A DNA stretch of 64,000 nt from the NCBI RefSeq assembly GCF_037975245.1, contig NC_092578.1:16002821-16066820 (forward strand), written 5' to 3'. This DNA comes from Apostichopus japonicus. Lineage: Eukaryota; Echinodermata; Holothuroidea; Aspidochirotida; Stichopodidae. The position numbers were made by a program, and so were the translations under genes. The notes beneath the pieces were generated by a model. That model saw only the letters and a list, made by a program, of their open reading frames with translations, was not told the origin of the DNA and ran no database searches. Of this stretch, positions 25,748 through 56,591 are shown one piece after another (positions within the stretch are counted from its first letter, which is position 1; each line of letters begins with the position of its first letter).

Positions 25748-25856
25748 ATGCCTAAGAAGAGGGTGTCACAAGCTAAGAGGAAGAACAGTGCCGCCAATGG
25801 CGTGAAGGAGAACGGAACAAAGTCCAAAACGAACGGCACCGTTCAGACCAATGGAG
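25748..25856 (+). CDS. ABCF2: ABCF2 exon 1
   Basis: Start codon in acceptable context (A at -3). Encodes the basic, low-complexity N-terminal tail, residues 1-36 plus one base. Donor gag|gtaagt, phase 1. Confidence 0.9.
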
Positions 25857-53600: not shown

Positions 53601-56591
53601 GGTACAATTCTTCATAATGGACCCGTCCATCGACATCCTGTATCCCATCCATTAACTGGAGTATAGAATATCTTTCAGGTTGTTTCCATCAGACTGAAGA
53701 ACGTCATTTTAATAACGTGCTAAAATCCAGGTTTTCTCCCACTCCCAACCCCAATCTTAACCCATGTTCATCAGACTTTTTATCAATTCCCAAAAGAATT
53801 GGGATGTAAATTAGATTCAAACCAAGGAAATTTAGTCGGCAAATCATCGTTTAGCAGTTTTGAGGATTCTCAATTTGGCTTACCATAAATATGTAAAAAA
53901 AAATATTGAAAGTAATTTATTGCTGAGCACAAAATTGCTAGGCCTTAACATATCTGAATTTGAGTAGTAACTTGACAATTTTAACATTGTGTTTTGCTAT
54001 TAGAGACCAGATTAATTATTCCCTGGGAACCTATCATGGTATCAACGTGAACATTTTATAAGATAACGTAGAAATGTAATATAGTGCTTTTGAACTTGAA
54101 TTCTACACAACCAAGGAACAAAACTACATTATGTTATGCATACTGAATGATTCAATTATACAATTTAAGATCAAACCTGATAAAAGAAGACATCTTTTCT
54201 ATCTGTTCCGTCAGTTGCAAAATCTTCCAAGATTCCTTCTGGGCTGATACCATGTTCCAAACACAGTTGCTTCCAAAATTCCATTCCAACTGAAACATGG
54301 TATGATACATGTAATAGGGTTAAAGTTAAAACATTATGAAATAACAATAATAATGCAGAAAACAGCATAAAATAAATTATCACAATTCCAACTAATAGCC
54401 AATTGCTATTTAGAGAATAGACACTCAAGCATCATTCTTATAGCTCGGCTAGACTATAAATCATAGCATAATTAGCAGGTTTTAAACTTTTGATAAAGAG
54501 TAGAAAAATGATGACATAAATAGTCACAACTGAAGTGTAAGCAATGCTTGCAAATTTGGCCCGCTGTCAAAATGTTATAGGGCTACCACGAGATCATATG
54601 AAAAGCCAAACAAGGTTCTACTTTTGAAGAAAAAAAAAATTGTTGTAACCTACCGTAGGTCTATGGTATGTATAGTAAAGGATTCATAATTGACGCACAG
54701 GTCTTCTTTACTGAAGCACCTTCAAATATTACTGGCAACCAGCCAAGCAGAGTTACACATTTGATGAGTTTTAATTCATTTCAGGTATATGCTGATCAAA
54801 TTGTGTTTTTTTTTAAGCTATTAACACTCTCCCCCCAGTTTTGCACATTTTTTTGGCATTTGGATATCTTACTCCCTAAAAATAACAAAAATTACCTCAG
54901 TATGATACCACTACTCTCTGGGACATGACCTGTCTGAGCTTAGAGGCTCAGAGCATAACAAACAGCATCCAAAGTCAATGAATGTATACTTAGGCCTACA
55001 CTACAGTTACTGTAGCTTATTGACGAATGTATCAATTTAGGGGTATGATGAAAGAACTTGACACAGCAGACATGTCAAATTCTGCTCAATTGTACGTTGC
55101 GTAGGTACAGAACAATAAATATTTTGAGATCATTACATTTCAGAGGAACTACACATATGAAAAACGCATACAGTTGAATGATTTGGATATTTCGTTGACA
55201 GAAATTGTTAATTTAAAAGGATTGTCTGGTGGCCCAAAGAAGTTACCTTAATAAATGATAAATAATTTTCCAAACATGTTGTCAAAGTATGAGAACGTTA
55301 ATGTTGCGTTTGACAGAGAAACGATTTATTAATCGTTAAGGATAGACATTTCAAATATGATTTGAACAGTACAGAACGTGACATCAGCTATGCTAATGCA
55401 GATTGCGACATAACCCACCCTCCGTACAGTACCTAAACGGTAATCACAACAAAAACCGCGTTTGTATACCGAAAAATTTCTTCATTAATTTACGGTGAAA
55501 TTTCTTAGAAATTAGATACTGTATGTTTTCAAAAACTCCTTAAGCCGTACTCCATATATGTAGTAGATCGGTGGTTTCGTGGTCTTTGTGTAACACAAGA
55601 TAAATTTTAACAGCAGACTCTTCGTTGTTTATACATTGCGCTATCCAGCTCCAACGCGAAGAATGTTCGCATGTGTAGGCTACATGTGTAGAGAACCCCT
55701 AAGCTTCTCGGTGCTACATTCTGCTCTGACATCGATTCCGCCAAGTTTCATCTTTCGGTGTTACAAATACTTTGCAAGTTTCCTTTTACTGTTAATTTGA
55801 CCCGTGAATTTTATTTCAGAGATTTCAAAGAACAGTTTATGAACTGTGGTTTGAGTGTCAGAGTATATTATGTGCAACGCTATACGTATACCAACTGGGC
55901 ATGGTAGGCTGTAACGTTCGCGATAGGTATATGTAATAGGCGGTCACCTGTGCGTGTACAAACGTGAGTGTATTTGTTGCGGAAAATGGGAGTGCTATCT
56001 TCAAGTCACCTGTTTTGCCTATTTGCAAGCACCAAGTCAATCACCATATTGATGCGTTCGAACAAAGGGTACTTTTGGTGAGAAACTGGTGAATTTGAAA
56101 ACCAGATTTCTATAAGAAGAAAACGTCCAATGGAGACGATTTTTACATGGTTAGAAAGAGAAAAATAATAACTACAAGGACAATGTATCAAAATCTTCAA
56201 CCAGACAATTCCTTTAAGTGCGTCAATTATGAGCCCAACATGCTAGGCCTATACCCAACTTTGGCTGTATTTATATGGCTTTACTGCCTAGGACTAAGAT
56301 ACAGTAAGGCAGGGGTAGGCGTAACCTGAGACACATGGCTAGGTGGCACTCTAGATACAATATGCAAAAAGGAAGAGCTAATCATAACTTCGTCTAACAT
56401 TAATCACATCACAACTTATCGAGCTATGTAGGCCTAGGCTACTTACAAATACAATAAGCCTAGCCTACACATTTCAAGTAATTTCGCATATCAGGTACTT
56501 ATGAAACAAGTACAGGAGATTGCAAAGACATGGATCACTTACTTTGGTTGCCACATTGTCCCAGCTGTAATGTTATAATTTCACGTGGCAT
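44456..56591 (-). CDS. TUBG1: TUBG1, gamma-tubulin (12 coding exons)
   Basis: Exons, in transcript order: 56543-56591, 54177-54289, 53261-53428, 52366-52434, 51681-51760, 50972-51098, 50691-50777, 49966-50121, 48948-49103, 47280-47354, 46057-46143, 44456-44692. All junctions keep frame, giving 467 residues if exon 12 is read to its first stop; human TUBG1 has 451. [16 protein letters not shown] starts the protein. The tubulin GTP-binding glycine motif AGGTGSG is at 142-148 and [10 protein letters not shown] is also seen. Gamma-tubulin caps microtubule minus ends in the gamma-TuRC at centrosomes. The C-terminal end is unsure: after WGTQK a consensus donor follows, so the last 14 residues may be intron read-through. 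Confidence 0.95.
44728..44972 (+). mobile_element. tRNA-headed SINE, copy 2 (TUBG1 intron 11)
   Basis: Box A-like tagctcagtgg at 44737-44747 and box B-like ggtgttcgagtc at 44781-44792 head a body matching the inverse of 32305-32540, ending ggaggatctaaaatacata and an A-run. It is antisense to TUBG1 and only about 35 bp upstream of the exon 12 acceptor. Confidence 0.8.
45728..45910. repeat. Minisatellite of 'atagcatagca' and 'atttataatagc' words
   Basis: Higher-order repetition of atttataatagcatagcaa-like units within TUBG1 intron 11. Confidence 0.85.
46057..46143 (-). CDS. TUBG1: TUBG1 exon 11
   Basis: Encodes [18 protein letters not shown] through NHTSIVS. Acceptor ttctag|gtt, donor tct|gtgagt, phase 0. 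Confidence 0.93.
46667..46985 (+). mobile_element. tRNA-headed SINE of a second family (TUBG1 intron 10)
   Basis: Box A-like tggtcagtggttaaagg and box B ggtttgagtcc (46721-46731) are followed by a body with ccttgggcaaggcactttat and cacccaggtgtacaaatggg. It ends in an ATT-repeat tail. Different from the family at 32305 and 44728. Confidence 0.75.
47280..47354 (-). CDS. TUBG1: TUBG1 exon 10
   Basis: Encodes [20 protein letters not shown] and PASIQ. Acceptor acacag|gta, donor atacag|gtatgt, phase 0. Confidence 0.93.
47355..48947 (-). other. TUBG1: TUBG1 intron 9
   Basis: 1.6 kb; the half next to exon 9 is the donor-spanning array described separately, and the rest is AT-rich without recognisable elements. 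Confidence 0.6.
48062..48990 (-). repeat. Tandem array of exon 9 end and donor (TUBG1 intron 9)
   Basis: On the minus strand the authentic donor boundary at 48948 is followed by copies at 48834, 48707, 48582, 48457, 48333 and 48208, plus a diverged one at 48069. The spacing is 114-127 bp, mostly 125, and 139 for the last. Each copy has about 60 or more bases equal to the exon 9 end (through gtagatcctacacag|gtaagc) and a G/C-rich intron part. The array lies in the intron, but a copy's exon-like part could be mistaken for extra exons. Confidence 0.95.
48948..49103 (-). CDS. TUBG1: TUBG1 exon 9
   Basis: Encodes [20 protein letters not shown] through [11 protein letters not shown]. Acceptor ttgcag|caa, donor acacag|gtaagc, phase 0. 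The conserved family has two fewer residues around VSSQMRDRQ. Confidence 0.93.
49436..49512. repeat. Three tandem units of about 29 bp (TUBG1 intron 8)
   Basis: Units containing acct(a/)agctaacagcc.tttacatac repeat three times. Confidence 0.75.
49646..49798. mobile_element. Short MITE, copy 2 (inverse orientation)
   Basis: Ends cagaccgaggac and gtcctcggtcag; inverse of the element at 14427-14579. Located in TUBG1 intron 8. Confidence 0.75.
49966..50121 (-). CDS. TUBG1: TUBG1 exon 8
   Basis: Encodes [20 protein letters not shown] through [20 protein letters not shown]. Acceptor gacag|gtc, donor aat|gtaagt, phase 0. Confidence 0.94.
50691..50777 (-). CDS. TUBG1: TUBG1 exon 7
   Basis: Encodes [20 protein letters not shown] and PDFSQINQM. 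Acceptor ttgtag|gtt, donor atg|gtagga, phase 0. Confidence 0.93.
50972..51098 (-). CDS. TUBG1: TUBG1 exon 6
   Basis: Encodes [20 protein letters not shown] through LTQNADCV. Acceptor tacag|g, donor gtg|gtatgt, phase 2 to 0. Confidence 0.93.
51681..51760 (-). CDS. TUBG1: TUBG1 exon 5
   Basis: Encodes [20 protein letters not shown] and LEKLND plus two bases, including the tubulin nucleotide-binding glycine loop. Acceptor tgtag|gcc, donor cag|gtatta, phase 2. Confidence 0.95.
52366..52434 (-). CDS. TUBG1: TUBG1 exon 4
   Basis: Encodes [20 protein letters not shown] and SLE. Acceptor ttcag|gga, donor gag|gtacgg, phase 0. Confidence 0.93.
53261..53428 (-). CDS. TUBG1: TUBG1 exon 3
   Basis: Encodes [20 protein letters not shown] through [14 protein letters not shown]. 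Acceptor atcag|gcg, donor ccag|gtgaga, phase 0. Confidence 0.95.
54177..54289 (-). CDS. TUBG1: TUBG1 exon 2
   Basis: Encodes [20 protein letters not shown] through [13 protein letters not shown] after a split Ile codon. Acceptor ttcag|tt, donor tcag|gtttga (a weak donor), phase 1 to 0. Confidence 0.94.
54290..56542 (-). other. TUBG1: TUBG1 intron 1
   Basis: 2.25 kb, AT-rich; near 55218 an 'aaaggattgtctggtggc' word resembles the dispersed repeat noted in ABCF2 introns 5 and 8. No exon seen. Confidence 0.5.
56543..56591 (-). CDS. TUBG1: TUBG1 exon 1 with start codon
   Basis: Encodes [16 protein letters not shown] plus one base. The start is fixed by the invariant gamma-tubulin N terminus. Donor a|gtaagt, phase 1. 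Confidence 0.93.

Follow-up and report, generated by a model that had tools for sequence, protein, structure and literature searches.

The question raised by a 64,000-nt stretch of the sea cucumber Apostichopus japonicus genome (contig NC_092578.1; the whole stretch is called the window) is why tandem repeats have copied several splice donors of two neighboring genes and none of their splice acceptors. The two genes, studied at window positions 25748-56591, face each other, with ABCF2 (ATP-binding cassette F2) on the forward strand and gamma-tubulin on the reverse strand. Hand-built gene models gave GT-AG boundaries in all 23 introns of the pair and therefore 23 donors and 23 acceptors, compared to the approximately 26 donors counted in the initial annotation. 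The top PDB sequence match of the predicted ABCF2 protein was ARB1 (E 2e-181; residues 75-589 of 607, covering the three array junctions), and that of the predicted gamma-tubulin protein was tubulin gamma-1 chain 8vrd (E 2e-275; residues 1-454 of 471); by sequence match the genes are ABCF2 and gamma-tubulin.

Arrays at donors and acceptors in the window and in sampled exons

The 20 nt on each side of every splice site in the window were compared as a 40-mer with 1500 nt of adjacent sequence. Donor-spanning 40-mers recurred at 30-40 of 40 positions for five of the 23 donors (ABCF2 donors 3, 6, and 10; gamma-tubulin donors 9 and 12), with a top score of 23/40 among the remaining 18, while none of the 23 acceptors lay in a tandem array by the same test and all scored 24/40 or less. 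Arbitrary 40-mers recurred at 30/40 or better at 3.9% of 6,780 positions in 200 kb of other sequence from the same genome, such that about one match per 23 sites is expected by chance. The difference between window donors and acceptors was marginal and calculated post hoc (5/23 vs. 0/23; Fisher p = 0.049). The arrays (Table 1) tandemly repeat the exon tail, the donor, and the intron start; they begin 27-69 bases within the exon and extend 220-1351 bases into the intron according to a lag scan, with units of about 35-160 bp and 1 to 15 extra donor copies. Tandem Repeats Finder (TRF) reported 94% matches in both the 103-bp array at ABCF2 donor 10 and the 125-bp array at gamma-tubulin donor 9, and the arrays at ABCF2 donor 3 and gamma-tubulin donor 12 consist of just two or three diverged copies.

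Many of the copied donors keep a full-strength motif. Among the 37 downstream donor copies scored, 15 had a motif score exactly equal to that of the true donor and one had a higher score, and use of 36 of the 37 would lead to a premature stop. The sole frame-open copy lies in the last intron of gamma-tubulin, downstream of donor 12, and its use would alter only the protein tail. Proteins translated via the first donor aligned gap-free with ARB1 across the exon 6/7 and exon 10/11 junctions of ABCF2 and with the tubulin gamma-1 chain across the exon 9/10 junction of gamma-tubulin, and for four of the five arrays no donor but the first kept the open reading frame (ORF) open. Judged from these stops and gap-free proteins, splicing at no fewer than four of the five window arrays probably takes the first donor as a rule, and the conserved ORFs suggest that regular splicing is kept despite the decoy donors.

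An independent sample was drawn from the genome outside the window (671,581,487 bases in 35 contigs) using searches with two Pfam families, Helicase_C (79 matches) and Pkinase (134 matches); the 19 matches to a third family, ABC_tran, are outside the sample. Stretches of approximately 0.7-1.8 kb were taken around 60 of the Helicase_C and 13 of the Pkinase matches, selected before sequence inspection according to domain-match quality and distinct place and, for Pkinase, also for being exon-sized over long open frames; a few of the sampled loci are adjacent exons within a single gene. To call exon ends, a small predictor was trained first on the window genes and later on the sample matches as well. 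The 40-mer rule, set early and kept, required a 40-mer straddling the site with at least 10 bases on each side and recurring at 30/40 or better within 400 intron bases. Whole arrays were found by lag scan in 71 internal-exon loci, and their spans are minima since some reach the end of the stretch. Two loci that are not internal, L052 (no donor) and L086 (no acceptor), are outside these 71 and inside both sets of 72 sites in the 40-mer test. The acceptor of L059 was taken at position 549, and the acceptors called in L083, L090, and L092 were low-scoring or doubtful. The counts leave out 26 exons (score at least 22), several of them transposon-like and many perhaps not genes, that were predicted in 20 arbitrary 10-kb stretches, with no donor or acceptor match at 30/40, and eight extra exons in the targeted stretches, likewise with no donor or acceptor match.

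In this sample the 40-mer rule was positive for 5/72 donors (6.9%) and 0/72 acceptors, with 4.8% positives at 1,880 arbitrary points of the genome. The lag scan identified 27 arrays in the 71 loci: six crossed a donor, six were confined to the intron on the donor side, 15 were confined to the intron on the acceptor side, and none crossed an acceptor at 30/40. All six donor-crossing loci (L043, L045, L050, L059, L072, and L092) were also inspected by eye; in L092, four more copies come after a 70-base unit made of 63 exon and 7 intron bases. Counted per site, 6/71 donors were crossed vs. 0/71 acceptors (Fisher p = 0.028). Counted per array, the donor was crossed by 6/12 donor-side arrays and the acceptor by 0/15 acceptor-side arrays (Fisher p = 0.0031), an asymmetry that holds over four thresholds (p = 0.001 to 0.010). 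Pooling the window and the sample gave 11/94 donors vs. 0/94 acceptors (p = 0.0007). The donor-only asymmetry described in the initial annotation, with five window donors copied and no acceptor, is thus borne out within the window and recurs outside it in a modest sample.

Feature positions and neighboring repeats

Table 1. Window coordinates of the two genes and of the tandem arrays within them (reverse-strand features are listed from high to low position).
Feature	Position	Strand	Description
ABCF2 gene	25748..39065	+	12 coding exons, 11 introns; spliced ORF 607 aa, all GT-AG; stop position (39065) by hand count from exon lengths
Gamma-tubulin gene	56591..43457	-	13 coding exons, 12 introns; spliced ORF 471 aa, all GT-AG
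Wholly intronic array, ABCF2 intron 2	27046..27288	+	unit ~135 bp; crosses no splice site
Array at ABCF2 donor 3 (27823/27824)	27797..28043	+	unit ~127 bp; exon tail 27 nt; 2 downstream donor copies
Array at ABCF2 donor 6 (31923/31924)	31877..32902	+	unit ~35/69 bp; 15 downstream donor copies; interrupted by interspersed repeat 32305-32539
Array at ABCF2 donor 10 (36530/36531)	36498..37881	+	unit 103 bp; 12 downstream donor copies, 9 equal to the true donor's score
Array at gamma-tubulin donor 9 (48948/48947)	49016..48104	-	unit ~125 bp; exon tail 69 nt (lag scan); 7 downstream donor copies, 6 equal to the true donor's score
Array at gamma-tubulin donor 12 (44501/44500)	44538..44253	-	unit ~152 bp; 1 downstream donor copy

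The interspersed repeat within the ABCF2 intron 6 array is approximately 240 bp long, and a second copy lies in gamma-tubulin intron 11 (44965-44730; 88.6% identical). The same repeat occurs twice in L028, a stretch elsewhere in the genome (7445-7204 and 5903-6134; 90% and 82% identity). By eye, it carries apparent tRNA-like promoter boxes, and if it was inserted into the intron 6 array then the array predates the insert. Within the gamma-tubulin donor 9 array, the exon predictor called a false exon at 48779-48707 on the reverse strand, which illustrates that arrays of this kind can lead annotation astray. ABCF2 intron 1 contains a dispersed repeat (26212-26335) with at least dozens of copies that are 92-98% identical across the genome, and some of these have a short inverted partner close by. 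Outside both genes, a 139-bp unit with runs of C and G is present in three copies (16252-16673), and ARAGORN reported a tRNA-Cys-like gene with anticodon ACA (1936-2010, reverse strand) that is perhaps a tRNA-derived repeat.

Among the sampled loci, the intron flanks on the acceptor side (L029-L101) were richer in arrays than arbitrary DNA (15/71 loci vs. 51/609 mock exons) and 13 of the 15 acceptor-side arrays were short-unit or simple. Donor-side flanks, counted for intron-only arrays, were no richer than arbitrary DNA (6/71 vs. 46/609 mock exons). In L014, a 40/77-bp array (9624-9785) starts about eight bases into the predicted intron, just past the donor, and leaves the exon uncopied.

Possible causes of the one-sided pattern

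The asymmetry could reflect an excess at donors or a deficit at acceptors. When every array was put at a random position but kept to the side of the exon on which it lay, the expectation was of 5.87 donor crossings against six seen (P = 0.60 for at least six) and of 4.77 acceptor crossings against none seen (P = 0.0022). Mock exons placed in arbitrary DNA from this genome, with arrays covering the whole mock exon left uncounted, yielded crossing fractions per array of 27/73 at donor ends and 23/74 at acceptor ends; compared with these, the sampled donors (6/12) were ordinary (binomial P = 0.26) and the sampled acceptors (0/15) deficient (binomial P = 0.004; Fisher 0.009). Per site, with whole-exon-covering arrays included, donors matched the mock rate (6/71 vs. 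48/613; Fisher p = 0.82) and acceptors fell below it (0/71 vs. 46/613; p = 0.010). Depletion at acceptors is the better supported part of the asymmetry, and a modest excess at donors is possible. As donor crossings are close to the random-placement expectation, the mechanism tied to donors that was proposed in the initial annotation is unnecessary.

We favor, with moderate confidence, a reading in which ordinary local tandem duplications pass through a filter imposed by splicing and yield minisatellites of the type termed "mirages" in amphioxus; the one-sidedness is probably due to the use of the first among several identical splice sites. In a genome rich in tandem arrays, duplications would hit exon boundaries roughly at random. 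On the donor side, the first copy would remain attached to the exon and be used, with the later copies sitting harmlessly in the intron and free to expand and homogenize. On the acceptor side, an extra copy would sit upstream of the true acceptor and compete with it, and its use would leave a piece of intron in the mRNA such that these duplications would mostly be lost. A "5' to 3' scanning" of splice sites was reportedly described by Lang and Spritz in 1983. In five minigenes tested under exon definition, splicing exclusively took the upstream member of a pair of identical strong 5' splice sites, and alternative 3' splice sites had an overall upstream preference that was strong with short introns (PMC9225289). 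This habit of using the upstream site, combined with the geometry of duplication, would make a donor copy harmless and an acceptor copy harmful. Splice-site choice that depends on position (PMC9225289) also undercuts the premise of the initial annotation that selection alone predicts symmetry. We infer both the filter and its strength in A. japonicus.

Several observations weigh against a splicing filter as the whole account. When arrays covering the whole exon were not counted, the acceptor deficit weakened (0/71 vs. mock 23/609, 3.8%; P = 0.065, Fisher 0.157) and donors reached 1.9 times the mock rate (27/609; p = 0.14, and 0.05 and 0.04 at stricter thresholds). The sample is small, and the 95% upper limit for 0/71 acceptors is 5.1%. 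Long complex arrays (unit at least 60 bp) crossed 6/71 donors vs. 18/613 arbitrary points, an approximately threefold difference (p = 0.030), and only two such long arrays were present on the acceptor side, which favors some donor-specific excess. At the loosest threshold (28/40), one acceptor-crossing array appeared vs. seven donor-crossing arrays; this is likely L069, in which the T-rich run stops seven bases before the acceptor at 30/40 and the called acceptor, in T-rich sequence, scored 26/40. Other acceptor-like AGs close to the exons lay in repeats only where they had not been called as acceptors (L032 at 37/40, L035 at 27, and L046 at 26). Exon definition is reported to significantly reduce the upstream-acceptor preference (PMC9225289) and is likely in A. 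japonicus given a mean intron of 1,286 bp (PMC10344927), which may soften the effect at acceptors. In addition, amphioxus has mirages at acceptors as well, and these reportedly do not interfere with splicing (PMC3087553).

A donor-tied mutational process, for instance R-loops or replication-transcription trouble at exon ends that makes long-unit duplications commoner there, appears fairly unlikely. Besides the excess of long units given above, 6/9 long arrays near sampled exons crossed the donor vs. 18/68 expected (p = 0.023), crossing arrays in the sample had longer units than non-crossing ones (70-160 bp vs. 13-80 bp; p = 0.0004), intron starts were higher in G+C at the 11 crossing donors than at the other 83 (0.45 vs. 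0.345; p = 0.005), and donors pooled with the discovery window exceeded the mock rate (11/94 vs. 27/609; p = 0.011). Against this, donor crossings match random placement once all arrays are counted, the 40-mer rate at donors is near that at arbitrary points, and the excess of long arrays shrinks when whole-mock-exon arrays count (31/613 arbitrary points). The non-crossing array of ABCF2 intron 2 is also long-unit, and constraint on the exonic copy may slow array decay and inflate detection at crossing sites. Of the G-rich intron starts on which the initial annotation based its proposal, the observation stands for 4/5 window arrays and fails in 5/6 independent arrays. G-richness or R-loops were rejected as a general cause: the G fraction at +7 to +56 was 0.18, 0.60, 0.08, 0.10, 0.20, and 0.14 in the six crossing introns vs. 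a mean of 0.176 in the non-crossing introns of the sample. What survives of the donor-tied mechanism is the possible excess for long units. It is unlikely that, besides the filter, a donor-linked process makes duplications with units of approximately 70-160 bp about three times commoner at exon ends, involving about one donor in twelve and turning exon ends into hot spots for minisatellite birth; if long tandem duplications are indeed drawn to donors, breakage linked to transcription at the ends of exons would be indicated.

A sampling accident, in which few arrays per gene and equal true rates gave a donor-only pattern by chance, is distinctly improbable: the window was chosen post hoc and the independent sample alone gives six vs. 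none, but the two concur when pooled and the array-level test holds at all four thresholds. Retention of the arrays as useful, with repeated U1-binding sites at the intron start aiding splicing or guarding the transcript from early polyadenylation, is highly improbable, as the many full-strength copies (9/12 at ABCF2 donor 10 and 6/7 at gamma-tubulin donor 9 share the true donor's score of 12.4) are accounted for by tandem-array homogenization without selection, the donor GT is gone, as judged by eye, from the old copy in L045, and just six of the 71 sampled donors are crossed. A transposon origin of the units is not favored because each unit includes a piece of an exon of the gene in which it lies.

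If the splicing filter is true, the ratio of donor-crossing to acceptor-crossing arrays would be a natural genome-wide readout of which identical splice site cells use, measurable in any assembled genome. Mirages would then extend from lancelets to an apparent echinoderm case at about one donor in twelve of those sampled, a frequency that would make them a common source of decoy donors and a possible confusion for gene annotation.

Comparison with known repeats at exon-intron boundaries

The initial annotation knew of no named class for these arrays, and the name exists: tandem repeats at exon-intron boundaries were called mirages in amphioxus Adh3 and were also reported from globin genes, where the unit measures 150-160 bp (PMC3087553). 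Amphioxus mirages apparently do not interfere with regular splicing, and their repeat number varies between haplotypes (PMC3087553); further cases were reported in PGBD5 (60 and 108 bp) and troponin C (PMC3902484). As described in those reports, the amphioxus repeats resemble the A. japonicus arrays in being minisatellite-like tandem duplications across the exon-intron boundary, here at 5/23 window and 6/71 sampled donors. Unit sizes are 10-160 bp in amphioxus (Adh3 10-72, BflGb9 157, BflGb6 150-160, PGBD5 60 and 108) and about 35-160 bp in A. japonicus, and both have many copies with AG/GT splice signals, the BflGb6 units being 81-100% identical. Unlike A. japonicus (11/94 donors and 0/94 acceptors at 30/40), amphioxus is reported to have acceptor-side (BflGb6) as well as donor-side (BflGb9) arrays. 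Involvement of both boundaries describes the mirage class and is not demanded of each case, and its occurrence in amphioxus limits how absolute the filter can be. Regular splicing was supported by reverse transcription polymerase chain reaction (RT-PCR) in the amphioxus reports and is suggested by the conserved ORFs in A. japonicus.

Human IFI6 (6-16/G1P3) is said, going by the title of a 1995 article in Nucleic Acids Research (NAR), to contain a minisatellite with multiple splice donor sites, a title that implies use of the extra donors. Both it and the window have tandem units with donors, and the break of frame by 36/37 window copies argues against IFI6-type use. Tandem duplication has also reportedly caused intron gain in potato RdRp. 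Intron gain via tandem duplication of AG/GT proto-splice sites is described in Drosophila (PMC2891723). These intron-gain systems also duplicate splice signals, but a new intron arises in them as reported, whereas the A. japonicus introns carry copies of their own exon end and donor. No array in either window gene reaches an acceptor, and the introns therefore end outside the repeats. In genes of human segmental duplications, gene structure is affected by internal tandem repeats that lie where exons meet introns (PMC2812944); that case differs in concerning recent paralogs and novel introns, and the words donor and acceptor are absent from the main text of the article. A donor/acceptor bias of such arrays was not found in searches of an open-license library, and nothing apparently relevant was found on sea cucumber minisatellites. 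The arrays of A. japonicus are thus a known kind of repeat, to which this locus and the sampled exons add an apparent echinoderm case and a measured bias between donors and acceptors.

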